Shown here: in pieces, positions 8,846 through 27,138 of the stretch
How the letters are laid out: the number at the start of each line of letters is the position of its first letter
How positions within the stretch are numbered: position 1 is the first letter of the stretch
From: Puniceicoccus vermicola
GTDB lineage: Bacteria; Verrucomicrobiota; Verrucomicrobiia; Opitutales; Puniceicoccaceae
Direction of reading: 5' to 3'
Length of the DNA: 64,000 bases
Assembly (NCBI RefSeq): GCF_014230055.1
Contig: NZ_JACHVA010000053.1
Location: 1 to 64,000 of the forward strand
The notes under the pieces: generated by a model
The model's input: only the letters and a program-made list of their open reading frames with translations
The model's database searches: none
What the model was told of the DNA's origin: nothing
Made by a program: the position numbers and the translations under genes

Positions 8846-9796
8846 CTATCGAAACAGCTTGGAGCGCAACCCAGTCCCAACTGCCAAACCACCCCAGTCA
8901 GCCCCACTCATCGCATGCGCCCGCTTGGGACGCTTCCCCGGATCTTCCTGCACCTGCTCCTCCACAAATGAGGCCGATCCCAGCACCATCCCATCGGTAA
9001 AGTACCGCACCCGGCACCGCAAAACCACAGACAGAGGCAATTTCCCCTTCTCCTTTTCCAGAACCCGAACCGCTTCTTCCCGCGAGATCGACTTCTTCTC
9101 CTCCTTCTCCCCAGCCCAGGCGCCATACAAAGTCTGCCGATACCCAGCCAGATCCTTGTCCACCACAGAAAGCCCGGCTCGAGCCATCCGGCCACCACCG
9201 AGCGCCTCGGCATACCCACAAAACCGGTAATCCTTAGGGTCTGACACCAAACCCGCCCGAACTGCGTTCAGATCAATATAGGCAGCCACCGTCCGCAGGG
9301 CCCAACGGTCCCCTTCCACCAGGACACTCTTAAACCGCTCACACCAAAGCGGTCCAAAACGATCCCGTGATCGATTGAACCACATCGCAAAACGCTGTTT
9401 CAGAGTCTTCATCATCCAGGAAACATCCCCCATCCGACGCAAAAGGCTCTTCCGCAAATCCCTCCCTTCCGAAGTATTCTCCCGAAGATGCTCCTCTAAA
9501 ACCTCCGCCGGCATGGGATTCCAAGGCGTAGGCTTCGGATAAAGCCGACGATACCGACGAACCAACTCCTCATCCGAAATATGAACCTCCGCCGGCACCT
9601 CCACCAGGATATGGAAGTGGTTCTTCATCACCGCATAAGTAACCACCCGAATCCCCGAGAAATCAGCCACCTGCCAGATCATCTTCCGCAATACCTCCCT
9701 CTCACGATCCCCAAAGAGAGCCTCCCCATTCACTGTCCGACTCATCACATGATAGTAAGCTGTCTGTCCATCGAGGCGCATCCGTTTTCTTCTCAT
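8846..9796 (-). CDS. REP-associated tyrosine transposase (RAYT, Y1/HUH family), copy 1
   Basis: A single-strand nuclease of the Y1_Tnp (IS200/IS605-like) superfamily, thought to act on REP hairpins. The HUH motif is NHFHILVEV (His60, His62). A helix bearing AAYIDLNAVRAGLV (about 180-193) is the usual RAYT context, with YIDLNxVRAG as the family signature. The protein is 316 aa from the ATG at 9796; a TTG 24 bases upstream is possible. It is about three-quarters identical by eye to the RAYT at 40182-41129, including the C-terminal GADWGGL..GTGLR..LFR. It carries no terminal inverted repeats and looks like a domesticated single-copy gene. The palindromic repeats around trkAH and at 11945 are plausible substrates. 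Confidence 0.9.
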   Translation of the reverse strand: MRRKRMRLDGQTAYYHVMSRTVNGEALFGDREREVLRKMIWQVADFSGIRVVTYAVMKNHFHILVEVPAEVHISDEELVRRYRRLYPKPTPWNPMPAEVLEEHLRENTSEGRDLRKSLLRRMGDVSWMMKTLKQRFAMWFNRSRDRFGPLWCERFKSVLVEGDRWALRTVAAYIDLNAVRAGLVSDPKDYRFCGYAEALGGGRMARAGLSVVDKDLAGYRQTLYGAWAGEKEEKKSISREEAVRVLEKEKGKLPLSVVLRCRVRYFTDGMVLGSASFVEEQVQEDPGKRPKRAHAMSGADWGGLAVGTGLRSKLFR

Positions 9797-9893
9797 GGTC
9801 CCAGTAGAGCAGACTTTCAAATGGAGATCAAACTTTTAAACCTGGTTTATTAAATTGTGATATCTCAGCCTCAATGTGAATCAGAGGAAGGAT

Positions 9894-12023: not shown

Positions 12024-13289
12024 CTAAAAGCTCGCTCCGATGCTCATCGAAAAGAGATGAAGCTGGCTCTCCATTTCGCCGGAAACTCCGTTGGCGACGG
12101 TGGTGCGGTCCTCATAAAGCACATACGAATATCCCAGACCGAGATACCACATTTCCCATCTCTTGGTGATACCAATGGTGAAGGCGTTTTGGTCGGCATC
12201 GGGAATGGTGGTGCTGAGGGTGCTGTCGGGAATGGGGCTCTCGAAATATTGATAGCTTCCGTGCAGCCGAATGCCGTCCTGCAGGTCGTAGCGGAGACTG
12301 ATTCCCAGGGTGTAAGAATCCTTCCAGTCCTCCGGGATTACATTATTGCCCCCGAAGAGAGCGGTATTCTGCCCAAAATCGAGATCGAGTTCATCGAAAG
12401 ACGAAAAGCCGACCCACTCAAACTGGATCTCAGCCTGCAGGGCCTCGGTCAGTTTGCGCCCATAGCCCAAGCCGACAATCTGGGGAAAAGTGATATTGGT
12501 CCCCGCTTCGCCATTCTCCGTAAAACCGAGGGATTGGGCCTGAGGAGTCAAGTTGCCCAAGGTGCCATCTCCAGAATAGTCGACCGGAATCTCAGACCGC
12601 CAGGTAGCGACCAGCCGATCCTTTTCCGTAACATCCCAAGTGACTGCCAGATTGGCCCCCAAGCCCCAGCCATCCATATCGGCCTCGGCCACGGTCTCGG
12701 ACGAGACGAGCGGAATCCCCTGAAACGCCACGGGAGGGAAATATTGTTCTAGCCGAAGCCGGGAATACATAAAATTCAATCCGCCCGCCACCGCTAGACT
12801 CTCATTGACCCGATAGGCCACCGTCGGATTAATGCGGACAGTCAGCAATTCGCTGGAATACGGGGCACTGTAGCGGAGGAGGCCTCCCGGCGCAAAAGCA
12901 CCCGTCTGTTCCCAGTCCGCGGCCAAGCCAAAGGGAACCGAAACTCCCAAGCCGAAGGCCCATTTGCCGTCCGCAAAAGGTACGACCCCGTAAGCATTGG
13001 GGAGAAACTTCAGCGGTTCACCCGATTTCGCCGTCATGCCATTGTCGTAGTCAACCTCATAGGAAATATGTACGAAGGCTGGGGCAAAGAGGACCTCACG
13101 GTCTTCAAAATCAACAAGATTCGCCGGATTCTCGGTGACTGCCGTCGCGTCGTCGATGAATGCCAACCGTCCTCCAGACTGTCCGAGCGCATAGGCACCT
13201 GGCGCGGCATTCCGAAACCCCTCCGCTCCCAAGGAAGAGGTCAACAGGGGAAAAAGGAAAAGGAGGGGTTTTTGAATGGGGCGGAACAT
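12024..13289 (-). CDS. Outer membrane porin of the OmpP1/FadL/TodX family
   Basis: A predicted 421-aa outer-membrane beta-barrel for uptake of hydrophobic compounds such as fatty acids. It starts with a signal peptide (MFRPIQKPLLFLFPLL, cleavage near SLGAEG). The FadL-type N-terminal plug region follows, with RNAAPGAYALGQSGG and the family's NPANLVDF motif (about 56-63). The rest shows alternating amphipathic strands with aromatic girdles and ends in a strand finishing with Phe (MSIGASF), as needed for BAM insertion. It is transcribed away from the PKS gene; the 98-base gap must hold both promoters. A role in handling a lipid made by the neighbouring cluster is possible but unproven. Confidence 0.88.
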   Translation of the reverse strand: MFRPIQKPLLFLFPLLTSSLGAEGFRNAAPGAYALGQSGGRLAFIDDATAVTENPANLVDFEDREVLFAPAFVHISYEVDYDNGMTAKSGEPLKFLPNAYGVVPFADGKWAFGLGVSVPFGLAADWEQTGAFAPGGLLRYSAPYSSELLTVRINPTVAYRVNESLAVAGGLNFMYSRLRLEQYFPPVAFQGIPLVSSETVAEADMDGWGLGANLAVTWDVTEKDRLVATWRSEIPVDYSGDGTLGNLTPQAQSLGFTENGEAGTNITFPQIVGLGYGRKLTEALQAEIQFEWVGFSSFDELDLDFGQNTALFGGNNVIPEDWKDSYTLGISLRYDLQDGIRLHGSYQYFESPIPDSTLSTTIPDADQNAFTIGITKRWEMWYLGLGYSYVLYEDRTTVANGVSGEMESQLHLFSMSIGASF

Positions 13290-13387: not shown

Positions 13388-16300
13388 ATGCCTCAAAAAA
13401 TCGCGATCATCGGAATCGGCCTCCGGCTCCCTCCTACCAGTGAAAGCCCCGACACATTCTGGAAGTTTCTATGCGAGGCGGGCGATGCGATCGCTCCCGT
13501 CCCCAGCGACCGCTGGGATCTCCGTCGGTTTTACGACCCGGACCCGGCGCGCCCAGGCAAAACCTATGTAGCCCGCGGGGGATTCCTGCAAAACGACGTG
13601 CGGCGTTTCGATCCCATGGCATTCGGAATCTCGCCTCGCGAAGCGAACGGAATAGACCCGCAACAGCGCCTACTCATGGAGAGCGCTTGGGAAACCTTCG
13701 AAGACGCGGGAATCCCCTTGGAACGTATTGAGAATTCCCGAACAGGAGTCTTTCTCGGAGGCTTCTGCCTCGATCATCTTCTCCAGATATCTCAACCCGC
13801 GAACCGCACCCAGGTATCCTCCCACTCGGCGACGAGCGGGTCGATGACAATACTTGCGAATCGACTTTCCTACGTATTCAACCTACGGGGACCTAGTTTC
13901 ACCCTCGATACAGCCTGCTCCTCCTCCCTAGTCGCCTTACACTGCGCCTGCCGCTCCATCGAAAATGGAGAATGCGAGCTGGCCCTGGCCGGCGGGTCCA
14001 ACGTCATGATGCGTCCGGAATATCCGATCATGATGAGCAAGGGGCATTTTCTCTCGGACCACGGGAATTGCCGAACCTTCGACACGACGGCGGCCGGATA
14101 TGCCCGCGGTGAAGGGGCGGCTATGGTGCTGCTGAAACCGTTGGACAAAGCGATTGCCGACGGGGACGCTATCCACGCCGTCATCTGCGGATCGGGGATC
14201 AATCAGGACGGGCGCACCTCGGGCATCTCTCTACCGAACAGCGAAGCGCAGGAATCTCTGATGAGAGAAGTCTACGAGAACGCGGGCGTCGCACCTGGCT
14301 CCGTCGATTACGTGGAGGCTCATGGGACCGGAACTCAGGCTGGAGATCCGGCCGAGGCGCGGGCTCTGGACGCAGTGTTTCGGGAAGGCCGCTCCAACCC
14401 CCTGACCGTCGGCTCGGTGAAGACCAACATCGGTCACCTCGAAGCCGCTGCGGGTATCGCGGGAATCATCAAAACCGCATTGATCCTCCGTCACCGAAAG
14501 GTTCCCCAAAACCTCCACTTCCAGAACCCCAACCCCAAGATTCCCTTCGACGAATATTGCCTCAAAGTTCCCGAGAAAAGCGAGGCTCTCCCCACTTTCG
14601 AAGAAAAGGCCGAGCTCTTCGCCGGCGTCAATTCATTCGGCTATGGCGGCACGAATGCCCACATCATTCTCTCCAGCCCTCCAGCCCCCACCCCGGCCAC
14701 CCAGAATCCCGATAACGAAACTCCCCGGATCTTCCCGTTTTCGGCGAGGAGCCCGGAGGCCCTGCGCGAGACCGCTTCGCGCCTGGCCTTCACGATCCGG
14801 CGCCGGAAAGATCTACAACTCGACGACCTCTACCACAGCTTAACAGAACGGCGATCCCACCTAAGTCATCGGGGAGCGATCATCGCCTCCAGCGCTCAAG
14901 ATCTCCGGTCGAAGCTGATGGCAGCTTCGACCGGAGAGGAATCTCCCGAAATTCGCCTTTCGGGAGAAACGGCTTCACCCGCTAAGGGACCCGTATTCGT
15001 CTGCACTGGTATGGGCCCGCAGTGGTGGGCGATGGGTCGAGAACTCTTCGAGAAGGAACCGATCTGTCGTGAAACACTCGACGAGATCGACGCTTCATTT
15101 CAGCGCGTCAGTGGTTGGTCGATCGCCGAAGCGATGCTCGCGAGCGAAGCCGACTCCCGCATGACCCGCACGGAAGTCGCCCAACCGGCGAATTTCGTTC
15201 TACAGGTGGCTTTGGCTCGGCTCTGGCAATCCTGGGGCATTGAGCCCAGCGCCATCGTCGGCCACAGTGTTGGAGAAGTCTCGGCGGCCTATCTATCCGG
15301 AGTCCATACCTTGGAAGAAGCGGTCGCCGTCAGCTACCACCGTAGTCGTCTCCAGCAACAAGAGGCGGGCAAAGGGAAGATGCTGGCCGTGGGACTCTCG
15401 GAAGAAGGAGTTGCTCCCTACCTCGAAGGGGTTGAGGGCGTCTCGGTCGCAGCGATCAACAGCTTCGCATCTGTCACGCTTTCCGGAGATTCGGAGGCCC
15501 TGCAATCGATTGCCTCGCGTCTCGAGGAGGAGAGCCTTTTCCATAAATTTCTCCGCGTCGAAGTGGCTTACCACAGCCCGCAGATGGAACCACTTCGGGA
15601 TGAGCTCCTGTCTTCGCTCGAATCACTCTCTCCGAAAAGCCCGAAAATTCCGCTGATCTCGACGGTCAGCGGGGATTTCTCGGACGGCAGCGAATGGACG
15701 GCGGATTACTGGTGGAAGAACGTCCGCCAACCCGTTCGCTTCGCCGCCGCGACCGCTACCCTGCTCGACAAGGAGTTCGGCCATTTCCTGGAAGTCGGCC
15801 CGCATCCGGTCCTCGGCAATTCCATCCGAGAGGTCGCTGCTGACCGGGGACACGCCATCCACCTCTTTCCCTCGATTCGCCGCAAGGAAGCGGAACTCGC
15901 CACGATGCGCACGTCACTGGCCGACCTATACGACTCTGGAATATCTCCGGACTGGAAAGCCCTCTCGCCCTCGTCGGGTCGATTTGTCCGGTTGCCGTCC
16001 TATCCGTGGCAGCGTCAATCCTATTGGAGCGAAACCCCGGAAGCGCGGATGGACCGACTCGGACTCCCCGGGCCCATTTACCAAAACCAGAAAATCCACG
16101 CAGCGCACCCCACCTGGGAAGTAGAGATCAATCGGGGCTTTTTCCCATTTCTCCCTGACCATGGAGTGCAGAACCAAGTGGTTTTCCCGGGTATGGGCTA
16201 CATCGAAGCGGCGCTCCTCCTCAACCAGAGTGTTCACGGCACCCGGAGTTGCGTGCTAAGCGACGTGGATTTCGAGAAGTTCCTCATCGTCGAATCCGAA

Positions 16301-19300
16301 CGACTTCAACACCTCGTTTCTTCCCTCGATCCGGAAACCCGCCGTTTCGAGATCGCCAGCCGCGTGCAGGACGAACTCGAAAGCCATCAGCGCCATGCGC
16401 GAGGAAGAATCTCCCCCGGCTCAGACGAGAGCGAAGCGCCCACCCTCGACATCGCATCGGCCCGGGAACAAGCCCCCCGCCCGCTTCCCCTCAAGGCCCT
16501 GTATGAAAAGATGGAACGCCGCGGACTTCACTACGGCCCCGCATTCCGCCCTATCGAAGAAATCCAGCTGGGCCCCGATTGTTTCTTCGCCACCATCGAT
16601 ACGGGTGACCGCGATCTCCACCAAGACGGGCACACGCTTCACCCCACAATTCTCGATGCCTGCCTCCAACCTATTCTCTACATCGCACGAGGAGAGAACC
16701 TGTATGTCCCAAATGGTATTCGTCGTGTCCAATTTTTCGGCACGAAGGGCACTCGATTCCACGCCTTTGGTAGACTGCGCAAGCAAACGGCCCAGTCTCT
16801 CGACGGCGACGTCTGGATCGCCGACGAGGAGGGCCGGGCGGTCGCCATCGTCGAAAACGTCACCTGCCAATCGGTAGACACCGAAGCTGCGCTCGGGGAA
16901 AAGAACGACAGCTACATCCCCGAATGGGAACCGGAGCCACTGGAACCCGTAGACGACCCCAAGTTGATGGGTTCGGCACTCCTCATCGCCGACGAAAAAT
17001 CGACCGACACCGCTCTACTCGAGTCCCTCCAGAATCAAGGCGGAGAAGTACTCCGACTCAATGAAAGCGGCGACCTTTCCTCACAAATCCTCGAAGCGTT
17101 GAAGCGAACCCTCCCCGAAGGAGGCCCGATCCTCACCTTCCTCGGAACGATTCCGTGCGATTCGGAAGACTACGAAGCAATCCTATCCCCTCATCAGAAG
17201 TTTCTGGAAATCGCCCGCGCCCTCCAGTCATTCGAGCACCCCTACGACCTGACCGTTGTCACTCGAAACAGCACACCGGGCCTCGACTCCGGCCAAAGGG
17301 GAACCCTTACGACAGCGGCATTCGCGGCCCTGGGGACCTTGGCTATCAACGAAAGCCATTCCGGCAGTTTCCGATCCATCGACCTCGGCAACGAATCCGA
17401 CGGAACCGGAATCATCCTGAACGAAATCTCGGCGGACTCGCGGGGAGAGATCGCCTGGTTGCGGGGAGAACGGCAGGTTCGTCGATTGAAAAGAGAGCCA
17501 CTGCCGACCGCCACAATCCCTCTCATCACCACCTCGGTCGACGAACCGATCGCCTTACATCCGGATGCGGGCCGGCGTATCGACGGCCTCGGATATCGAA
17601 GCGCTCAAAGACAAGAGCCGGGTCCAGGCGAGGTGGAAATCAGAGTCCTCGCCGCAGGCATCGGCGAAAAGGATACACTCAAAGTCCTTGGCAAGCTGAG
17701 TAGCATCGCCACCCGCGATACTTTCTCCGAAGATCATCTCGGCCTGGAATGCATGGGAGAAATCGTGCGCACTGGCACAGAAGTCGGCCCAGACATGATC
17801 GGACGCAAAGTCATCGGCTTCGTCCCTGGAGCGTTTTGTTCCCATGCAACCGTCTCCGCCGACCTTCTCGTCGCCGCCCCGGAAGGGCTTGGAAAGGCAG
17901 CCGCCGGCATCTCAATGGCCTACGTCACCGCAACCCACGCGCTCGAAGGAGTCGCATCTCTCCGAGCCGAGGAGCGGGTGTTGATTCTAGAAGCCTCCGG
18001 CGAAGTGGGCCGGGCCGCGGTCGCCGTATCTCGTCGCATCGGTGCCACGATCTTCGCGACAGCCGATGAAGACGAAGCTCACGACCTCGAAAAAACTCAG
18101 GAAGTCCGGCGAGTCTATGCTGCCGGAGATGCGGGATTGGTCGAAACGATCCGGCGGGATATCGGAGACGAAGGTTTCGACGTGATTCTCAGCCCCTCAT
18201 CCACCCGCGATCATTCGGAGAGCCTTTCCCTGCTTCGCCCCGGCGGACGCTTCATCGAGACGGGGAAGAGGCGTATCCTGGAGAACGGGGCATTACCTTT
18301 ACGGGCCTTCAACGAAAACCTTCTTTTCGCCTCAGTCGATACGGACCGCCTCCTGAAGCAACGGCCCACTTTGATCCGGGAACTACTGGAAGAGATGGTG
18401 GGTCGATTTAACCGGGGCGAATACAACCTGCCGGCTTGCCGGGAATTCCCCGCCTCCGCAGTGCACGAGGCATTCGAAGTTGCGGGAAAGGGCCACGAAA
18501 AAGTGATCCTCGATTTCTCTACCGGCACGGTGGACATCCCCGCTTCAACGCGCATACCGGGGGAAATCCATCGCGACGGGGCCTACCTCATCACCGGTGG
18601 AACCTCCGGCTTCGGTCTGGAAACGGCGAAGTGGCTGGCCCGGGAAGGCGCGGGCAGGATCATTCTCCTCAGCCGCCGCGGACGGGACGTGGACGGACTG
18701 GAAGAAAGCCTCACCCAGATTTCGGACGAGACCGCGGAGGTGCTGGTCGAAGCGGGCGACGTGACGGACGAGCCGACCCTACGACGCATCGGCGAACTCA
18801 TGAACTCGGAGGGACTTCACCCGGCCGGAGTCATCCACGCGGCCATGGTTCTTGACGACGCGCCCCTCCCCGAGATGACCCCTGAGCGATTCGAACGAGT
18901 CATGCGGCCGAAAGTGGGCGGACTCCTCGCGATCGAGAAGGCCCTGCCCTGTTCCGAACTCGATTTCCTCGTCCTCTACTCTTCCATTTCGTCGCTGATC
19001 GGAAATCGCGGCCAGGCCAACTATGTTGCCGCAAACGGTATTCTCGACGCCATGGCCCAAAGACTCCGGAAAAAGGGCGCTCCGGCCATCTCGATCAACT
19101 GGGGGGCCCTTGCAGAAACCGGGGTCATCGCCCGGTCCGCCAACCTCGAAGGCATTTTGACCTCGGCGGGAGTCGAGGGCCTCACCAATCAGGAGGCCTT
19201 GCGATTTCTGCGGCGAGCGCTGAAGGCGGACCTGCCCCACGTCGCCGCCTTTTCGGTGGACTGGAACCGCTGGAAGGAGAGCCATCCGGCACTGACCACC

Positions 19301-19648
19301 GACACGCGTTTCCGCAAGCACACCGAACAATCCTCGAGAGGAGAGGAAGACCCAATTTTATTAGAACTACGTGAATCCATTGCTGGCAAAACTCCGGAAG
19401 AACGGACTTCGATCGTTGAGCGGCGACTGGCCGAGGGACTCTCGACCATTCTGAAGATTCCAGTCGATCGGATCGACTCGGACTCGAAGCTGAGCAACAT
19501 GGGTGTCGATTCGCTTTTACTCCTGGAGTTGAGCCTAGAGCTCAAAAAGCGCACCGGTGTCATGATCCCGGCCATGGAATTCCTCAAGGGTCCGAACATT
19601 CGGGACCTGTGCTCCGTCATCCTCTCGCGGGTCGATTCCTCCGAATAA
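13388..19648 (+). CDS. Fully reducing one-module type I polyketide synthase (KS-AT-DH-ER-KR-ACP)
   Basis: A 2086-aa cytoplasmic multienzyme that should build a saturated acyl or hydroxyacyl chain from malonyl-type units, probably by iteration. KS (about 3-430): DTACSSS with Cys177, EAHGTGT, GHLEAAAG. AT (about 533-830): GHSVGE with Ser627; the specificity motif reads VAYH, which is neither the malonyl HAFH nor the methylmalonyl YASH. DH (about 905-1160): LPDHGVQ..FPG with the catalytic His near 923 and an Asp in LDACLQP. About 1172-1375 is a structural KR half. ER (about 1396-1712): NADPH motif LEASGEVG. KR (about 1730-1955): GGTSGFG, Ser1866, Tyr1879, and LDD suggesting B-type (D-hydroxyl) products. 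ACP (about 2010-2086): GVDSLLLL with Ser2042. There is no thioesterase, so release needs a partner, perhaps the methyltransferase downstream. The order matches mycocerosic-acid-synthase-like enzymes. The ATG at 13388 follows an in-frame TTG by one codon. Confidence 0.93.
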   Translation: MPQKIAIIGIGLRLPPTSESPDTFWKFLCEAGDAIAPVPSDRWDLRRFYDPDPARPGKTYVARGGFLQNDVRRFDPMAFGISPREANGIDPQQRLLMESAWETFEDAGIPLERIENSRTGVFLGGFCLDHLLQISQPANRTQVSSHSATSGSMTILANRLSYVFNLRGPSFTLDTACSSSLVALHCACRSIENGECELALAGGSNVMMRPEYPIMMSKGHFLSDHGNCRTFDTTAAGYARGEGAAMVLLKPLDKAIADGDAIHAVICGSGINQDGRTSGISLPNSEAQESLMREVYENAGVAPGSVDYVEAHGTGTQAGDPAEARALDAVFREGRSNPLTVGSVKTNIGHLEAAAGIAGIIKTALILRHRKVPQNLHFQNPNPKIPFDEYCLKVPEKSEALPTFEEKAELFAGVNSFGYGGTNAHIILSSPPAPTPATQNPDNETPRIFPFSARSPEALRETASRLAFTIRRRKDLQLDDLYHSLTERRSHLSHRGAIIASSAQDLRSKLMAASTGEESPEIRLSGETASPAKGPVFVCTGMGPQWWAMGRELFEKEPICRETLDEIDASFQRVSGWSIAEAMLASEADSRMTRTEVAQPANFVLQVALARLWQSWGIEPSAIVGHSVGEVSAAYLSGVHTLEEAVAVSYHRSRLQQQEAGKGKMLAVGLSEEGVAPYLEGVEGVSVAAINSFASVTLSGDSEALQSIASRLEEESLFHKFLRVEVAYHSPQMEPLRDELLSSLESLSPKSPKIPLISTVSGDFSDGSEWTADYWWKNVRQPVRFAAATATLLDKEFGHFLEVGPHPVLGNSIREVAADRGHAIHLFPSIRRKEAELATMRTSLADLYDSGISPDWKALSPSSGRFVRLPSYPWQRQSYWSETPEARMDRLGLPGPIYQNQKIHAAHPTWEVEINRGFFPFLPDHGVQNQVVFPGMGYIEAALLLNQSVHGTRSCVLSDVDFEKFLIVESERLQHLVSSLDPETRRFEIASRVQDELESHQRHARGRISPGSDESEAPTLDIASAREQAPRPLPLKALYEKMERRGLHYGPAFRPIEEIQLGPDCFFATIDTGDRDLHQDGHTLHPTILDACLQPILYIARGENLYVPNGIRRVQFFGTKGTRFHAFGRLRKQTAQSLDGDVWIADEEGRAVAIVENVTCQSVDTEAALGEKNDSYIPEWEPEPLEPVDDPKLMGSALLIADEKSTDTALLESLQNQGGEVLRLNESGDLSSQILEALKRTLPEGGPILTFLGTIPCDSEDYEAILSPHQKFLEIARALQSFEHPYDLTVVTRNSTPGLDSGQRGTLTTAAFAALGTLAINESHSGSFRSIDLGNESDGTGIILNEISADSRGEIAWLRGERQVRRLKREPLPTATIPLITTSVDEPIALHPDAGRRIDGLGYRSAQRQEPGPGEVEIRVLAAGIGEKDTLKVLGKLSSIATRDTFSEDHLGLECMGEIVRTGTEVGPDMIGRKVIGFVPGAFCSHATVSADLLVAAPEGLGKAAAGISMAYVTATHALEGVASLRAEERVLILEASGEVGRAAVAVSRRIGATIFATADEDEAHDLEKTQEVRRVYAAGDAGLVETIRRDIGDEGFDVILSPSSTRDHSESLSLLRPGGRFIETGKRRILENGALPLRAFNENLLFASVDTDRLLKQRPTLIRELLEEMVGRFNRGEYNLPACREFPASAVHEAFEVAGKGHEKVILDFSTGTVDIPASTRIPGEIHRDGAYLITGGTSGFGLETAKWLAREGAGRIILLSRRGRDVDGLEESLTQISDETAEVLVEAGDVTDEPTLRRIGELMNSEGLHPAGVIHAAMVLDDAPLPEMTPERFERVMRPKVGGLLAIEKALPCSELDFLVLYSSISSLIGNRGQANYVAANGILDAMAQRLRKKGAPAISINWGALAETGVIARSANLEGILTSAGVEGLTNQEALRFLRRALKADLPHVAAFSVDWNRWKESHPALTTDTRFRKHTEQSSRGEEDPILLELRESIAGKTPEERTSIVERRLAEGLSTILKIPVDRIDSDSKLSNMGVDSLLLLELSLELKKRTGVMIPAMEFLKGPNIRDLCSVILSRVDSSE

Positions 19649-19725
19649 TCAGTCGGCAAATATTTTGAATTTTCACCGATTCCCTCTTATCTTCGCAACT
19701 CTTCACCCCCAACCACTCTACTATT

Positions 19726-21120
19726 TTGGAACAAACGGTCACAGGCATTGATAGCGTCGTCTCCTTCCGCAACAGTCAAGGCGCTCGCGGGAGGGGCACA
19801 CTCGTCCACATAACTCGTTCGATGGCCGTATTCGAGGTCTACAACCCGTTTTCGGTCGTGCAACTGAGCGAGGTGATGCAGGAAATCCTCATCTCGCGCG
19901 GAGAACGTGTCATCTACCGCGGCAAAGGGGTCGTCACCAGCATCGTGACGACCGGGCTCATGACCATCGTCTCGGCGACCTTCACCGACGCGTGGAGCGA
20001 CCCGGGAGCCCTCCGTCCGGGGAAAAGTCTGGAAACCGAGATCCAGGACTTCATCCACGGATGGGAAAAAGGCCACGACCTCTCCCCTTCCTACCAACTG
20101 GTCGTGAATAAAATGGGGACCTTTTTCTCGGAAATCAGCCGCTGGATCGAGGAGGTCGAAGTCGCTCTACTTGAGGATTCGAAACACAACCAGGTCAGCG
20201 AAGAGAGTTTCCGCGGCTCCATCGAGCGCCCGGTCATCGGAAAAGTGGGGGAATTTTTTCGTCTGTTCGAATCGGAGGCGCGGAAGATTCCGCCCGAGGA
20301 AGTCCCGGTCTACAAGGCCTTTGCCCGCCGGGAATTGCATCCATTCATCCTCTGCGCTCCTTTCGCCCACCGCACCTACTCGAAACCGCTCGGGTACGCG
20401 GGCGACTACGAGATGGTCAATATGATGTTGCAGGAATCGACGAGCCGAGGGAACAACACCTACGCCCGGATTTTCCAAGACATTCAAACGAATGTGGCCG
20501 CCTGCGCAGCGCACCGCAACCGCATCGATTTCTTGCAGAATCACCTCGCCGAAGAAGCGAACCGCGTGCAAGACGAGATGCGCACTTGCAACATCCTCAA
20601 CGTCGGGTGCGGCCCAGCCGTCGAGGTCCAGCGCTTCATCCGCGAAAATGATGCCTGTGAGGAGTGCGTTTTTACTCTGATGGATTTCAACGAAGAGACA
20701 CTGGAATATACTTCCGGCCGGATCGAAGAAGCCATTCGGGAGTCGGGACGGCAGCCGATGATCAAGTTTATCCAGCGCTCGATCGACGAACTGCTCAAAG
20801 ACGTGCACGACCAGAAAGAGGAAATCGTCCCCACCTATGATGTCGTTTATTGCGCGGGCCTGTTCGATTACTTTCCCGACAACGTCTGTCGAAACCTCGT
20901 CAGCCTCTACTACCGCTGGGTCAAACCCGGGGGACTGCCCATGGCCACCAACGTAACGCCGACCAACCCGGACCGTTGCACTATGGAGCACCTCCTCGAA
21001 TGGTATTTGATCTATCGCGACGAAGAGAACATGCTCTCCCTGGCTCCATCCGGCAGCTCCCCCAAAGTCGAAACGGATGAAACTGGAGTGAACGTGTTCC
21101 TCTCCATTCGCAAACCGTAG
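19726..21120 (+). CDS. SAM-dependent methyltransferase, PhcB-like (fatty-acid methyl ester signal synthase candidate)
   Basis: A 464-aa protein with an N-terminal beta-rich region (about 1-115, PilZ-like in feel; text SVVSFRNSQGARGRG). A linker helix follows, then the motif GYAGDYEMVN (about 222-231) and a class I SAM fold with motif I NILNVGCGPAVEVQ (about 290-303) and TLMDFNEETL as the acidic loop. From memory, GYAGDYE-type text directly ahead of the SAM fold is characteristic of PhcB proteins. In Ralstonia these make 3-hydroxypalmitic or 3-hydroxymyristic acid methyl ester as a quorum signal. The start is a TTG at 19726 with no good Shine-Dalgarno; the next ATG (residue 33) would cut the N-terminal domain. 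It lies 77 bases after the PKS, and its stop codon abuts the ATG of the sensor kinase. PhcB assignment is moderate; the methyltransferase fold is secure. Confidence 0.78.
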   Translation: MEQTVTGIDSVVSFRNSQGARGRGTLVHITRSMAVFEVYNPFSVVQLSEVMQEILISRGERVIYRGKGVVTSIVTTGLMTIVSATFTDAWSDPGALRPGKSLETEIQDFIHGWEKGHDLSPSYQLVVNKMGTFFSEISRWIEEVEVALLEDSKHNQVSEESFRGSIERPVIGKVGEFFRLFESEARKIPPEEVPVYKAFARRELHPFILCAPFAHRTYSKPLGYAGDYEMVNMMLQESTSRGNNTYARIFQDIQTNVAACAAHRNRIDFLQNHLAEEANRVQDEMRTCNILNVGCGPAVEVQRFIRENDACEECVFTLMDFNEETLEYTSGRIEEAIRESGRQPMIKFIQRSIDELLKDVHDQKEEIVPTYDVVYCAGLFDYFPDNVCRNLVSLYYRWVKPGGLPMATNVTPTNPDRCTMEHLLEWYLIYRDEENMLSLAPSGSSPKVETDETGVNVFLSIRKP

Positions 21121-23730
21121 ATGTCTTCCCGGGAATCAACGGCCACTCCAGAAATCCTCTCGGAGTACCACCAAGTCGATAATCACCGCCGCCTCGTCCG
21201 GCTGCGGATTGCCCTGCTATTTTCGATTCTCTTTTTCCCTCCCGGCTATCTTATCGACCTTCTCGTCTACCCGGAGAGCAGTCCCCATCTCTTGAAAATC
21301 CGACTCGCTGTCGCCATCGGTTTTTCGGCATTGCTACTCCTGACGCGATTGCGGCTGCATCGCACCGCGCTCATCTGGTTCGGGATCATTATTGCGATCC
21401 TCGACATCGCGGTTTTTTGCGGCATGACTCTCGTCACCAATGGGGCCTACTCCCCCTATTATGCTGGCATCAATCTCATTCTGCTGAGCATCTCGATTCT
21501 GATGCCATGGACGATATGGGAAACCGCAACGGTCTCCGCCGTTGGCCTCCTGCTGTATGTCGGGGCGTGCCTCTCCGCATCGGGCATGGGGATTCTCGCC
21601 CAGCCTGTTTTCCTCAACAACAGTTTCTTTGTCTTCATCACCGGCGCTATCTGCGTAATTTCTTCGGGCATACAATCACGAGCCCGCTTCTCGGATTTTC
21701 AACTGCGCCACCAACTGGACGTGCAAAACCGAGAGCTGCAGGCCCTCGACCGGCTCAAGACAAACTTCTTCTCGAACGTGACCCACGAGCTTCGCACCCC
21801 GCTGACGCTCATCCTCGGCCCGGTTGAGACGATCCTCAAGAAATCGCACGATCTGCCGCCTCAAATCCACGAGAATCTTCTCCTCGCCCAGCGTAATGCT
21901 CTCCGGTTGCTGAAACTGATCAACGACTTGCTGGACCTGACCCGAATGGAACAAGGGGAGAATGTCCTCTCCCTCCGACGATTCCGGCTGGAGCCCTACC
22001 TCGGAGGCATCGTGGACTCGGTGCGCCACCTCGGTCTGGCAAAGGGGATTTCGATTCGCCTTCTCGAAGGGAATTCCGAAGACACCCTGGAGGCCGATCC
22101 CGCCAAGCTGGAAAAGGTCGTCCTCAACCTGTTGACCAATGCAGTCAAGTTCACCCCCCGGGGTGGAACGATTTCGGTAAGCTGGGAACGGCAGGGGGAC
22201 CGTGAACTCATCAGCGTGGCCGATACGGGAGTGGGAATCTCGCTGGCCGACCAAGAGAAAATCTTCGACCGCTTTTATCAAGTCTCTGGAGATTCGGGCC
22301 GCCAATCACAGGGGGTGGGCATTGGGCTCGCACTCGTCAAAGAACTTGTCGAGCAGCACGGAGGCACTCTCCGTGTGGCCAGCGAATCCGGACGAGGGTC
22401 CACCTTCACCGCAGATCTTCCAGTGGCTGCCGCCCACGACGAGACCGTTCCCCTGCTCGAACCGAGCGGCAGCAACGAGGAGGACTCCGAACCCTTCCGC
22501 GAGGCCTTTCGCTCGGCCGACCGCACCTTCATTAACCGCGAGGTCGAAAATTCGGACGATGTCCGCGTCCTCGGATCGGGACAGTTCACCGTCTTGGTGG
22601 TCGAGGACGAGCCGGACGTTCTTCGCTACATATCCGGGTTTCTCTCGGAAAAGCATCGAGTCGTCCTCGTGCGCGAAGGGAGCCAGACCGAAGCGCTGGT
22701 CGAAGAGTTCCAGCCCGACCTCCTCCTCCTGGACTGGATGCTTCCCGATCGCAGTGGTCTCTCGATCTGCCACGACCTGCGCCAGGATCCCAAGCATTCG
22801 GACCGGAAGATCGTCATCCTCACCGCGCGAGTCGACGAAGAGTCGAAGATGGAAGCGCTGAAGGCCGGAGCCGATGACTTCCTCCTGAAGCCATTCAGCA
22901 GTCTCGAACTGCAAACCCGCATCGATAATCTCCTGCGCTCGGGCGAACTCCAAAAACGACTCCGGGAGCGGAATACCGAGCTACAGGAAACCCTGCACAA
23001 ACTCGAACAAACCGAAGCCCAACTCATCCAAAGTGAGAAAATGAACGCTCTCGGTTCGCTCTCCGCCGGGCTGCTCCACGAGATCAACAATCCTCTGAAC
23101 TACGCCTTTTCGGGAATCCAGCTCCTCGAGATGAATCCGGAGGGCTTAGATGAAGACTCGAAAGAAACGGTCGCCGATATCCGCGACGGGATCAAACGAG
23201 TCATCGACGTCATCCGGGATCTCAAGACATTCGCCTACCCCGAAAAACCGGGCCGCCAGAGCCGATTCCCAATTCGCGAGATCGTCGACCCGGCGCGCAA
23301 GATCGCTACCCGAGAGCTAGAGGACATCGAGTTCGTCGAGGAATTTTCCGACGACCTCACCCTCGATGGGCAAAAGACCCAGTGGCTCCACGTCCTCATT
23401 AACCTTTTCACCAATGCCGGTCGCGCCCTCCACGAGGAACCCGACAACCCTCATCCGCGGATCATTCTCCGCGCCGAGAAAACGGACAAAGGTCTTCTTC
23501 TATCCTGCACGGACAATGGTCCGGGGATCCCCAAGGAAATCATCAAACGAATCTTCGATCCTTTCTTCACCACAAGAGATGTTGGAGAAGGCATGGGAAT
23601 GGGGCTTTCCATTTGCAGAACAATTGTAGAGAATCACGGGGGTTCGATGGAAGTAAAGGCGATCCCGAATCAGGAAACCACTTTCACTATTTTTATTCCG
23701 GAATCTCAAACCAAAGAAGATCATGAGTGA
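21121..23730 (+). CDS. Membrane hybrid histidine kinase with two kinase cores (HK-REC-HK), PhcS-like C-terminus
   Basis: An 869-aa inner-membrane sensor. Six hydrophobic helices (about 24-180) with very short loops form the N-terminal input and leave no room for a periplasmic domain, suiting a lipophilic ligand. A first kinase core follows: HELRTPL with His222, N-box NLLTNAVKF, G-boxes DTGVGI and GVGIGLAL. A receiver with VVEDEP and Asp538 (LLLDWMLP) comes next, then a coiled coil (about 610-645). A second core has HEINNPLNYA with His653, NLFTNAGRAL, DNGPGIP and GMGMGLSI. A phosphorelay within one chain (His222 to Asp538 to His653 or to separate regulators) is plausible. The start codon directly follows the methyltransferase stop, and its end overlaps the next regulator by 8 bases, so translation is coupled. 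The HEINNPLN core resembles PhcS; the first HK-REC part is additional. Confidence 0.9.
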   Translation: MSSRESTATPEILSEYHQVDNHRRLVRLRIALLFSILFFPPGYLIDLLVYPESSPHLLKIRLAVAIGFSALLLLTRLRLHRTALIWFGIIIAILDIAVFCGMTLVTNGAYSPYYAGINLILLSISILMPWTIWETATVSAVGLLLYVGACLSASGMGILAQPVFLNNSFFVFITGAICVISSGIQSRARFSDFQLRHQLDVQNRELQALDRLKTNFFSNVTHELRTPLTLILGPVETILKKSHDLPPQIHENLLLAQRNALRLLKLINDLLDLTRMEQGENVLSLRRFRLEPYLGGIVDSVRHLGLAKGISIRLLEGNSEDTLEADPAKLEKVVLNLLTNAVKFTPRGGTISVSWERQGDRELISVADTGVGISLADQEKIFDRFYQVSGDSGRQSQGVGIGLALVKELVEQHGGTLRVASESGRGSTFTADLPVAAAHDETVPLLEPSGSNEEDSEPFREAFRSADRTFINREVENSDDVRVLGSGQFTVLVVEDEPDVLRYISGFLSEKHRVVLVREGSQTEALVEEFQPDLLLLDWMLPDRSGLSICHDLRQDPKHSDRKIVILTARVDEESKMEALKAGADDFLLKPFSSLELQTRIDNLLRSGELQKRLRERNTELQETLHKLEQTEAQLIQSEKMNALGSLSAGLLHEINNPLNYAFSGIQLLEMNPEGLDEDSKETVADIRDGIKRVIDVIRDLKTFAYPEKPGRQSRFPIREIVDPARKIATRELEDIEFVEEFSDDLTLDGQKTQWLHVLINLFTNAGRALHEEPDNPHPRIILRAEKTDKGLLLSCTDNGPGIPKEIIKRIFDPFFTTRDVGEGMGMGLSICRTIVENHGGSMEVKAIPNQETTFTIFIPESQTKEDHE

Positions 23731-24763
23731 CCCAACCGAGAATGTTAAGCCAGGCATCCTTTACGTCGATGACGAGGAAAAGGCATTGAAGTACTTTGCC
23801 AAAGCCTTTGGAAGGACCTTCACCGTTCATACCGCGACCAATCCAAAGGAGGGCCTCGAGATCCTCGAACGCGAGGCCGAGAACATCCCGCTGATCGTTT
23901 CCGACCAACGGATGCCCGAAACGACGGGAGTCGAGTTTCTCACTCAGGTCCGCGCCCGATACCCCGAGAAGATCCGCATCCTGACAACGGCCTACTCCGA
24001 CCTGGACAGCGCGATCCAATCGGTCAACCAAGGCCGTATCTACCAATACGTCGTAAAGCCCTGGGATTTGCAGGAACTGCAGATGATCCTCCGGCGTGCC
24101 TACGATTATTACTCGATCCTCACCGAGAGGAATGAGCTCATGGCGATTAAGATGAGCACCTTCCAGCGGATCGTGCTTTCCGACCGAACCAAGACTCTCC
24201 AGCTCCTCTCCGGTTTGCTCGAAGGCAAAGAGAGCAAGGACCTCGGCACGGCTCTCTACAGTTTGATCGGAGCCCTTCCCCCTACCCTGGAATCGAACCC
24301 TGCCAGCGCCGGGCAATCCTTCCTGAGAGGAGGTCTCCGGGATTTCATGCAGCAGGAGCGGGAGGCCCATGAGACCATTCTCGCGTTTTGGAAATCCGGC
24401 TCTTCGTCTCTGGAGGAATCTCTTCAGAAGCTGGTCCAGCTCTTGGAGAAGGGCCCGCTCCAAGCGAATTGCCGTAAAGATTTTTCCGGGTCCGAGAAAG
24501 AACTGATCCTGGAGATTGAAGCAGGCCGGGAATCTGAACTCCTGCACTCGCTGTTCGGGGTTCTGACCGAGCCCCAACCCTCCGAAATCGCTTTGGAAGT
24601 CCTGCGGCTATTGCCCCTTCTGGAGGCAGAATCAAGCACCCTCGCCGTACAATCCGGGGGACAGGAGATCGCTAAATTTGCGCCAAAATCACTTTCGGAG
24701 CATTCTGCTCTTGAGGAGGAGCTCTCCATGCTCTATGACAAATGGGATTCAATGTCTCTTTGA
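23723..24763 (+). CDS. Response regulator with unclassified C-terminal region (PhcQ/PhcR-like receiver)
   Basis: A 346-aa cytoplasmic protein. The receiver (about 10-130) starts ILYVDDEEKAL and has phospho-acceptor Asp61 in VSDQRMPE, the switch Thr in LTTAYSD and the conserved Lys in VKPWD. The LTTAYSDLDSAI...IYQYVVKPWD wording recalls RpfG/PhcQ-type receivers. Residues about 146-346 are helical and acidic and contain no HTH, HD-GYP, GGDEF or kinase motif that I can recognise. The start overlaps the kinase gene by 8 bases (ATGAGTGA). It is probably one of several phosphate acceptors of the kinase next door; with no output domain it may act by protein contact. Confidence 0.85.
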   Translation: MSDPTENVKPGILYVDDEEKALKYFAKAFGRTFTVHTATNPKEGLEILEREAENIPLIVSDQRMPETTGVEFLTQVRARYPEKIRILTTAYSDLDSAIQSVNQGRIYQYVVKPWDLQELQMILRRAYDYYSILTERNELMAIKMSTFQRIVLSDRTKTLQLLSGLLEGKESKDLGTALYSLIGALPPTLESNPASAGQSFLRGGLRDFMQQEREAHETILAFWKSGSSSLEESLQKLVQLLEKGPLQANCRKDFSGSEKELILEIEAGRESELLHSLFGVLTEPQPSEIALEVLRLLPLLEAESSTLAVQSGGQEIAKFAPKSLSEHSALEEELSMLYDKWDSMSL

Positions 24764-24796
24764 GGCTGAAACAACAATCCTTTCCTATCGCTTCTC

Positions 24797-25939
24797 ATGA
24801 CCAGTCCTGCTCGTTCTGAACCTTCTGTCCTCTTCGTCGACGATGAAACGAGGGCGCTGAAGATCTTTGAGAAAGCCTTTCGCAATAAGTTTCCGGTCTT
24901 CACAGCCTCCTCGACCGCCGAAGCGATGGAAGTTCTCCAAAACTCTTCGGACAAAATCGGGGTCGTCATCGCCGACCAAAAGATGCCCGGAGGCAACGGA
25001 ATCGAGTTTCTCCATGAGGTACGGGAGAGATTCCCCGACAAGATCCGCCTCCTGACCACTGCTTACACGGAAATCGATACATTGGTCGGAGCCATCAACG
25101 AAGGGTCGGTCTTTCGCTTCATCTCAAAACCGTGGAATCTTCAGACCCTCGGGGAAGAAATCGCCCAGGCCCGCGAAAGCTTTGACCTCTCCACCCGAGA
25201 CCGCGAATTCGTGAACCTGCGACTGGAAGAGTTGAAAGATATCGTCCTCGACGAAAAGGTGGCGGAGATTGGGACAGTCGCCATTAGCCTCAGCCACTAC
25301 GTCGACAATGCTCTCTGCCCTTTCGACCTCCTGATCTCGAAGATCAGCGAGAAAATGGACGACAGCGACGACGAATCCTACCTATCGTTCCTCAAGAGGA
25401 TCCGGGAACACATCCGAGCCACTTCTGAAAATATTTCCCACCTGCGCCTCGTGGATGCGCCTCTGGAATCTGACCGTCTGGAATCAGTCGACCTCGCCGA
25501 ATTGCTCGATCATTGCCTGCAACGCAATCAGGAGCTTTGCGACGGGAAGAAGATACATTTCGAGATTACCAAGGAGGATGGCCCCTTTGTCGTGACCGGA
25601 GACCGCGAGAGGCTGGCCGACTTTTTCCACTTCATGATCGCCGAAGAAGTGGTTTCGCTCAACAGCGATTCATCCGTCTCCGTCTCACTCAAAGGCGACC
25701 AAGGCCACGGCGTTTCCATCGAGATCGCCGATCGGCAGTCCATTCGCTCCGGGGTGTCCCCCAACGACTTTCTCTATCCCTTCAATGTCCGCAGCGCCAA
25801 CCCACGCAACTTCGGTGTGTTTCTGATCTGTGCCTATTTCCACGTGCGTGCTCACGGAGGAAAGATGAAGGTGGACCAGCGGGAAGGATCCGGACTCACC
25901 TTCCGTTTCTACTTCTCGGCTCATCCCCCCCTGCCTTAA
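24797..25939 (+). CDS. Response regulator with degenerate histidine-kinase-like C-terminus (2)
   Basis: A 380-aa protein whose receiver (about 8-130: VLFVDDETRAL, Asp60 in IADQKMPG, LTTAYTEID, SKPWN) closely matches that of the preceding regulator. The second half looks like a kinase core: a dimerisation helix with SLSHYVDNALCPF (His167) and a C-terminal ATPase-like domain ending GSGLTFRFYF. The ATP-binding boxes are poor, with no DxGxG and no GxGLGL, so catalysis is doubtful. It starts 33 bases after the previous gene. PhcR of Ralstonia has the same receiver-plus-kinase-like layout. A phosphotransfer or scaffold role is inferred. Confidence 0.82.
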   Translation: MTSPARSEPSVLFVDDETRALKIFEKAFRNKFPVFTASSTAEAMEVLQNSSDKIGVVIADQKMPGGNGIEFLHEVRERFPDKIRLLTTAYTEIDTLVGAINEGSVFRFISKPWNLQTLGEEIAQARESFDLSTRDREFVNLRLEELKDIVLDEKVAEIGTVAISLSHYVDNALCPFDLLISKISEKMDDSDDESYLSFLKRIREHIRATSENISHLRLVDAPLESDRLESVDLAELLDHCLQRNQELCDGKKIHFEITKEDGPFVVTGDRERLADFFHFMIAEEVVSLNSDSSVSVSLKGDQGHGVSIEIADRQSIRSGVSPNDFLYPFNVRSANPRNFGVFLICAYFHVRAHGGKMKVDQREGSGLTFRFYFSAHPPLP

Positions 25940-26013
25940 ACTGTTTGATAAATTATTGATTCGTGATTTCTTCAAAATCTGCTTAGCTTGAAGAAAGTTC
26001 ACGATCTTATCAG

Positions 26014-27138
26014 ATGGAGCAGGCCGCTAAACAACCCATTCTCGTCGTCGACGATGAGCCCCTCGTCAGAGAAACATTGGAATTCGGCTTACAAAACGAA
26101 TATTCCGTTCGTTTAGCCGCGACTGGTCGCGAAGCCATTGAAGCCGCAAAAAATGAGTCATTTCCCGTCGTCTTGCTGGACCTGCGGATGCACGACCTCG
26201 ATGGAATTAGCACCCTGCGCGAGCTTCGGAAAATCGATACCCAGCAAAAGGTCATCATCCTCACCGCTCACCAATCGATGGAATCTGCGATTGAGGCCGT
26301 AAACTTGGGAGCTTTCAACTACCTGACCAAACCTTGCGATCTGCTTTACCTGCGGGAGCTCATTTCCAACGCCCATCGCCTCTATTTTGAGGAAAAACAG
26401 CGAACCGAAAGGTTCCGGGAGAGCATGATGAGCATGCACGACGAGGTTTTTTCCGTGTTGTGCCATGAATTCAACACTCCGCTGAACGGCATGATCGGAT
26501 TCTCCGGATTCCTCGCCGATGAGCTCAAATCTCCCGAACACCGCGAGATGGCGACCTACATCGAGAAAAGCGGCAAGGAGCTCCACAGCATTTTCGTAGA
26601 GATGATGGATTACCTGAGCAGCAATCGGCCTCAGAATCCGGCAGTCGACAGAAGATTCAGTTTTCGGGATTTGGAAGAGTGGATCAGCTCTTCCGAATTT
26701 CCTACCCGCTGCTCCGTATTTTTCAGCGGATCCGAAGACCAAGCGGCAGAGGTCTGCACCGGGCCATTGAAGATCCTGAAAATGATCTTGTCGAAGATTG
26801 CTCAGTCGGGAAAACCGAACCTTGAGGGCATCAGCCTAGTGGCTTGGTTCTCGTCGGATGAAGACGAGAAGGTTCTCCACTTGCAGATCCAAGGGAAGGG
26901 GCTCGACCCCCTACTGGAAACCGCCGGCTCCACAGAAACCATTTTTTCTCCGTATGCGGCCTCGAGCCTAAACCTTACCGGAAAGGTTCGGGGACTGGGT
27001 CTCCATATGGCAACCTGCCGCAACCTTGCCGAGTATTCGGGAATCGACCTTAGTTGCGACACCGACAGCACGGGACGGTTGCGGATTCATCTCAACATCC
27101 CAGTGAACCGCCCGTACTCACCCGACGACGAAATCTAA
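26014..27138 (+). CDS. Response regulator with C-terminal histidine-kinase-like domain (3), PhcR-like layout
   Basis: A 374-aa protein. The receiver (about 8-125) has ILVVDDEPLVRETL, Asp56 in LLDLRMHD, LTAHQSME and TKPCD. It is followed by a coiled helix and an H-box CHEFNTPLNGMIGF with His151. The remaining ATPase-like part is reduced, with a G2-like GLGLHMA (about 333) but no visible N-box or DxGxG. It lies 74 bases after the previous gene and ends 6 bases before the convergent hisA. Its receiver is of the general NtrC/hybrid type and less like the two regulators before it, so it is not a simple duplicate. It is the last gene of the cluster, and no DNA-binding output exists in any of the three regulators. 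Confidence 0.83.
   Translation: MEQAAKQPILVVDDEPLVRETLEFGLQNEYSVRLAATGREAIEAAKNESFPVVLLDLRMHDLDGISTLRELRKIDTQQKVIILTAHQSMESAIEAVNLGAFNYLTKPCDLLYLRELISNAHRLYFEEKQRTERFRESMMSMHDEVFSVLCHEFNTPLNGMIGFSGFLADELKSPEHREMATYIEKSGKELHSIFVEMMDYLSSNRPQNPAVDRRFSFRDLEEWISSSEFPTRCSVFFSGSEDQAAEVCTGPLKILKMILSKIAQSGKPNLEGISLVAWFSSDEDEKVLHLQIQGKGLDPLLETAGSTETIFSPYAASSLNLTGKVRGLGLHMATCRNLAEYSGIDLSCDTDSTGRLRIHLNIPVNRPYSPDDEI

Follow-up and report, generated by a model that had tools for sequence, protein, structure and literature searches.

Does an operon in which a polyketide synthase (PKS) precedes a methyltransferase (MT), a sensor kinase and receiver proteins resembling the products of the phc quorum-sensing genes make and sense a lipid signal whose acyl chain it builds itself? 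The 64,000-nucleotide stretch of Puniceicoccus vermicola DNA analysed here (the window) carries such an operon, which the first-pass annotation had read as a self-contained lipid quorum-sensing system. Its six plus-strand open reading frames lie where that annotation had placed them, with the same spacings of 77, 0, -8, 33 and 74 bp, and Table 1 lists them together with a divergent neighbour. We consider the chances about even that the locus is a Phc-type lipid signalling operon with its own acquired acyl-chain factory, a reading that draws on directly observed homology, gene order, co-inheritance, clade structure and neighbour conservation. "Self-contained" proved too strong a word, as the operon holds no starter-loading enzyme, no phosphopantetheinyl transferase, no PhcA (the LysR regulator) and no other DNA-binding protein. 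An IS200-like (Y1) transposase gene lies near the locus (window 8846-9820, minus strand).

Table 1. Features of the operon and its divergent neighbour, in window coordinates
Feature	Position	Strand	Description and evidence
PKS	13385/13388-19648	+	Single-module reducing type I, KS-AT-DH-ER-KR-ACP, no thioesterase or loading domain; Pfam, mycocerosic acid synthase structure match, motifs
Methyltransferase (MT)	19726-21120	+	PhcB-family SAM, 464 aa; PilZ-fold domain, helical linker and Rossmann methyltransferase; Cupriavidus match, trees, model pLDDT 87
PilZ-fold N-terminal domain of MT (predicted)	19753-19983	+	Residues 10-86; structure alignment, motif check
Hybrid sensor kinase, PhcS-like	21121-23730	+	Six hydrophobic segments, HisKA-HATPase, receiver, PhcS-type HisKA-HATPase; Pfam, Cupriavidus PhcS match, hydropathy
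RR1	23723-24763	+	PhcQ-like receiver protein, no DNA-binding domain; 43% over 170 aa to Cupriavidus PhcQ
RR2	24797-25939	+	Receiver and degenerate kinase-like C-terminus; receiver 38% over 115 aa to Cupriavidus PhcR
RR3	26014-27138	+	Receiver and HisKA (HEFNTPL), degenerate ATPase; PhcR-like layout; 31% over 200 aa to Cupriavidus PhcR
FadL/TodX-family outer-membrane channel	12024-13289	-	421 aa; Pfam PF03349, E 2.8e-51

The MT is a full-length homologue of PhcB: it aligns with the equally long Cupriavidus pinatubonensis protein at 44% identity over 455 aa, and its alignment with a plasmid protein of Paraburkholderia graminis also covers almost the whole length. The Cupriavidus protein, which served as reference in place of the R. 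solanacearum sequence and was assigned as PhcB by inference, is the only such MT found in its genome. We take strain JMP134 to be now classified as C. pinatubonensis. The phc products of that strain, described as C. necator, are 56-75% identical to their R. solanacearum counterparts (PMC2842291). Searches with the MT gave no name in NCBIfam or PHROGs and no convincing relative among PDB sequences. Trees were built from 107 rows and, with long branches removed and bootstrapping, from 44 rows; the outgroup of the first consisted of PhcB-like proteins of about 300 aa and a PKS-fused Enterobacter region. In both trees the MTs linked to a PKS group in a single clade (100/97 in the bootstrapped tree); its sister is the set of Burkholderiales PhcB proteins (100/98.5), and it is nested in a broad radiation of MTs belonging to the window's class, so the MT groups with PhcB, as its resemblance had suggested, and not with other methyltransferase families. 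Two unusual relatives were seen along the way: an Enterobacter ludwigii plasmid PKS whose C-terminus holds a distant PhcB-like methyltransferase region (25% identity; L072, 9742-12912), and a PhcB-like MT of 685 aa with a fused receiver-like region (L062, 2089-4146).

The kinase that follows the MT without a gap is 869 aa long and has two kinase cores flanking a receiver (Pfam, hydropathy), which amounts to an extra kinase-receiver block relative to PhcS. The six transmembrane segments claimed for it agree with about six hydrophobic segments (residues 28-186), and its last core (HEINNPL at residue 653) is indeed PhcS-like, with 36% identity to Cupriavidus PhcS over 258 aa and a match in the membrane part as well. 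At several other loci (L055 10589-13306, L059, L238 and L243) the kinase is split into two genes or is of short PhcS size, and such forms may be natural transitional stages linking PhcS with the hybrid kinase. All three receiver proteins are present. The match of RR1 to Cupriavidus PhcQ is given in Table 1; for PhcQ R154 (PMC6989110) the numbering differs and the placement is uncertain. The PhcR-like kinase C-termini that had been attributed to RR2 and RR3 are degenerate: of the three receiver proteins, Pfam recognises HisKA in RR3 only (E 1.2e-9), and HATPase in neither RR2 nor RR3. Calling the two genes PhcR overstated the case, since the identities of 31-38% lie mainly in the receiver (in RR3 they cover the receiver and H-box), and it is in layout that RR2 and RR3 may be PhcR-like.

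How widely is this set of genes spread, and what is its core? In samples of genomes searched for the MT, it occurs at E up to 1e-3 in 27 of 388 from the phylum, and at E up to 1e-20 in 17 of 373 from the order and 78 of 384 from the window's class. The flanking DNA was read at about 90 MT loci, and in nearly all of them the kinase lies directly downstream of the MT and is followed by a PhcQ/PhcR-like receiver. Because the kinase accompanies the MT at almost every locus read, with or without a PKS, the MT belongs to signalling and not to PKS tailoring, which we had considered as its primary role and rejected on the ground that most MT-kinase loci have no PKS. The same association makes it most likely that the MT is the signal-making enzyme of a module of MT, sensor kinase and receiver, and that the PKS is an addition which would change the MT's substrate.

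An orthologous PKS (2082-2134 aa) lies directly upstream of the MT in 14 loci besides the window, and these 15 rows, which span seven families (f1, f4, f9, f11, f14, f35 and f39), all fall in one MT clade. The predicted co-occurrence of the PKS with the sensor genes is thus borne out, and the order PKS-MT-kinase, repeated in 14 other genomes, exceeds chance. The PKS-MT gap is 2-60 bp in the relatives and 77 in the window, and when pairwise identities are compared among PKS, MT, kinase and RR1, the correlations are 0.95-0.97. For one MT placed on a long branch within the PKS clade of the 107-row tree (genome G438), the upstream DNA, about 19 kb of it, contains no PKS. In a genome of another class (G358) a different PKS of 2603 aa (FAAL-ACP-KS-AT-MT-KR-ACP), which is unrelated to the window PKS and has its own AMP-ligase domain, lies directly upstream of the MT-kinase pair; this locus (L058, 1770-19204) continues after PKS, MT and kinase with a TonB receptor and an A-PCP-TE NRPS. 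The first-pass annotation had known of no phc-type locus with its own PKS, and among 80 Burkholderiales phc-type loci whose flanks were read none carries one (0/80). It had made no mention of the second, independent PKS, the wide background of PKS-less modules, the adjacent FadL gene or the PilZ fold.

These observations bear on whether the PKS is the source of the signal or could be an output of the pathway. The signal might be an ordinary fatty-acid methyl ester and the PKS a signal-controlled enzyme that makes a separate lipid and stands first in the operon by happenstance, as might be expected from the many MT-kinase-receiver modules without a PKS and from the related PKSs that exist without an MT (below); yet the PKS is the first gene of the operon, directly upstream of the MT, it follows the MT tree, and the corresponding position in G358 is taken by another, unrelated PKS, so we regard the output explanation as rather unlikely.

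The PKS itself is, as annotated, a one-module reducing enzyme without a thioesterase, its domains being recognised by Pfam, and among solved structures it comes closest to mycocerosic acid synthase (E 4e-274). The genome encodes no other large KS protein; its remaining four KS matches fall in open frames of 432-498 aa. The catalytic motifs of KS, AT, DH, KR and ACP are all present and are conserved in the 15 orthologues (motif alignment). The nucleotide motif of the ER varies among the 15 PKSs and reads GEVG instead of GGxG in the window, where ER activity is uncertain. The AT motif VAYH matches neither the standard malonyl nor the standard methylmalonyl motif. Given this nonstandard AT motif and the variable ER motif, the chain that the PKS makes is not predictable. 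The KR carries an LDD motif, which is associated with 3R-hydroxyl products. PKSs of this type are not exclusive to the MT-kinase operon: of the nearest relatives in genomes that lack the MT, the one in G724 adjoins a PLP-dependent aminotransferase-family gene, and the one in G791 has as neighbours a gene for a lipid A acyltransferase and one for lipopolysaccharide export. Such MT-less single-module PKSs lie at L254 (9740-17661) and L255 (8869-16509), their partners being a PLP-dependent aminotransferase-family gene and a lipid A acyltransferase gene. This suggests that the MT-less relatives pass an ACP-bound chain to a neighbouring enzyme, and such a hand-over would fit the missing thioesterase of the window PKS.

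What else accompanies the module? The FadL/TodX gene, divergent from the PKS and 95-98 bp away from it (no sigma-70-like promoter was found between the two), scores 174.8 bits against PF03349, for which the curated cut-off is 29.7, and is the single PF03349 gene in the 5.2-Mb genome. FadL genes adjoin 40 of 89 phc-type loci (39 of 88 plus the window) in 16 of 32 families, with and without a PKS; the expectation by chance is less than one locus at about one FadL gene per genome (23 genomes checked, not picked blind), and the next commonest neighbour family adjoins 11 loci. They lie on either side of the module in all orientations, with 18 changes on the MT tree. FadL is missing beside about half of the phc-type loci, was not found beside those of Burkholderiales, and is absent or a marginal match in the PKS-bearing genomes checked of f35, f39 and some of f14. 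FadL mediates uptake of long-chain AHLs in Sinorhizobium fredii (PMC9938287). Among the independent hints at a long-chain lipid as product or ligand, the FadL linkage is the strongest.

The same channel can be read in another way, in which there is no cell-cell signalling: the operon would produce a methylated lipid for structure or storage, and the state of the membrane or of imported lipid would be sensed (through FadL and the PilZ-fold domain) and controlled by the kinase system. In favour of this, channels of the FadL family take up hydrophobic compounds from outside, lipopolysaccharide genes accompany a related PKS and the operon encodes no output regulator; set against this, PhcB and PhcS, the closest characterised relatives, make and sense a quorum signal (PMC8578825, PMC10653808), and we judge this reading to be distinctly unlikely.

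The N-terminal part of the MT lies outside its methyltransferase domain. When its first 102 residues were predicted alone they matched PilZ structures (Z up to 11.4, rmsd 2.9 over 102 residues, MrkH 5kec; VIA-align), and PilZ entries filled the top ranks of the structure alignment. The RxxxR and [DN]x[SA]xxG c-di-GMP motifs are absent at the expected places in 27 of 27 sequences, Burkholderiales PhcB included; the modelled domain is a PilZ fold, and we do not assign it as a c-di-GMP receptor. The R22C substitution in Ralstonia PhcB altered signal synthesis (PMC6989110). The R22 position falls in this domain (R23 in the window) and is R in 24 of the 27 sequences, and the predicted PilZ fold would give a structural setting to a mutation outside the methyltransferase domain. 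That the MT has another substrate or a purely regulatory role and shares no more than a family fold with PhcB, as the PilZ fold and the resemblance of its methyltransferase domain to many small-molecule methyltransferases might suggest, is very improbable in view of the full-length similarity, N-terminal domain included, and the direct linkage to PhcS-like kinases.

We return, then, to a Phc-type operon with its own chain factory, for which speak the full-length PhcB homology and sister position of the MT, the PhcS and PhcQ homologies, the co-inheritance within the PKS clade, the PKS of G358 and the FadL linkage. It might work as follows: judging from its domains and intact active sites, the PKS would act iteratively and build up, on its ACP, an acyl chain that is long and largely reduced. 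The MT, if PhcB chemistry carries over by homology (44%), would accept this chain instead of, or besides, 3-hydroxyacyl chains from fatty acid synthase and give a methyl ester or similar methylated lipid; action of the MT on the PKS-bound chain could also explain the missing thioesterase. The lipid would cross the outer membrane, probably via the adjacent FadL-type channel, and be sensed by the six-TM PhcS-like kinase, from which phosphate would pass via the kinase's own receiver and the PhcQ-/PhcR-like proteins to an output encoded elsewhere. Judged by the genomes, it is probable that the bacterium produces a custom lipid signal of its own and also detects it. More tentatively, and with somewhat less than even confidence, we propose a class of polyketide methyl ester autoinducers, in which the lineage-specific acyl chain of a dedicated PKS is released by a PhcB-family enzyme, transits through FadL and is sensed by a hybrid PhcS-type kinase, in a phylum without described phc-type signalling.

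Phc clusters have been described from Betaproteobacteria and their distribution called restricted, from a survey that covered Proteobacteria only (PMC10653808), and our search of the literature by title and abstract gave nothing relevant joining phcB with Verrucomicrobi. Relatives of phc are now seen in 78 of 384 genomes of another class, one branch of which appears to join chain synthesis, methylation and sensing in one operon. For bacteria that are poorly studied, this yields an autoinducer prediction open to direct testing, and it offers a genomic handle on the diversification of signal chains, with FadL as a candidate lipid-signal channel.

How does the locus compare with known systems? 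The PKS-less loci of the window's class have the same MT, a hybrid (or short PhcS-sized) kinase, a PhcQ/PhcR-like receiver and often FadL; they lack the PKS and presumably use ordinary acyl chains. The window PKS shares its domain order and the lack of a thioesterase with mycocerosic acid synthase and other iterative fully reducing single-module PKSs, and differs from them in adjoining an MT and kinases, in its unusual AT motif and in its variable ER motif. The Lqs/Cqs alpha-hydroxyketone systems are alike in their lipid-type signal, membrane sensor kinase and pairing of synthase and sensor genes; their synthase, unlike that of the window system, is a PLP enzyme, and the signals and genes of Lqs and Phc are described as completely different (PMC10653808). 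With phcBSRQ of Ralstonia and Cupriavidus (3-OH PAME / 3-OH MAME) the operon shares a PhcB-family MT, a PhcS-like six-TM kinase, a PhcQ-like receiver, a protein that may count as receiver-kinase by its layout and has no DNA-binding domain, and a single compact operon with the regulators after B and S, in that order. It differs from phcBSRQ in having no known PhcA and a host outside Pseudomonadota, three receiver proteins of which the PhcQ-like one comes first, a kinase enlarged by an extra HisKA-HATPase-receiver block, FadL alongside and a PKS upstream.
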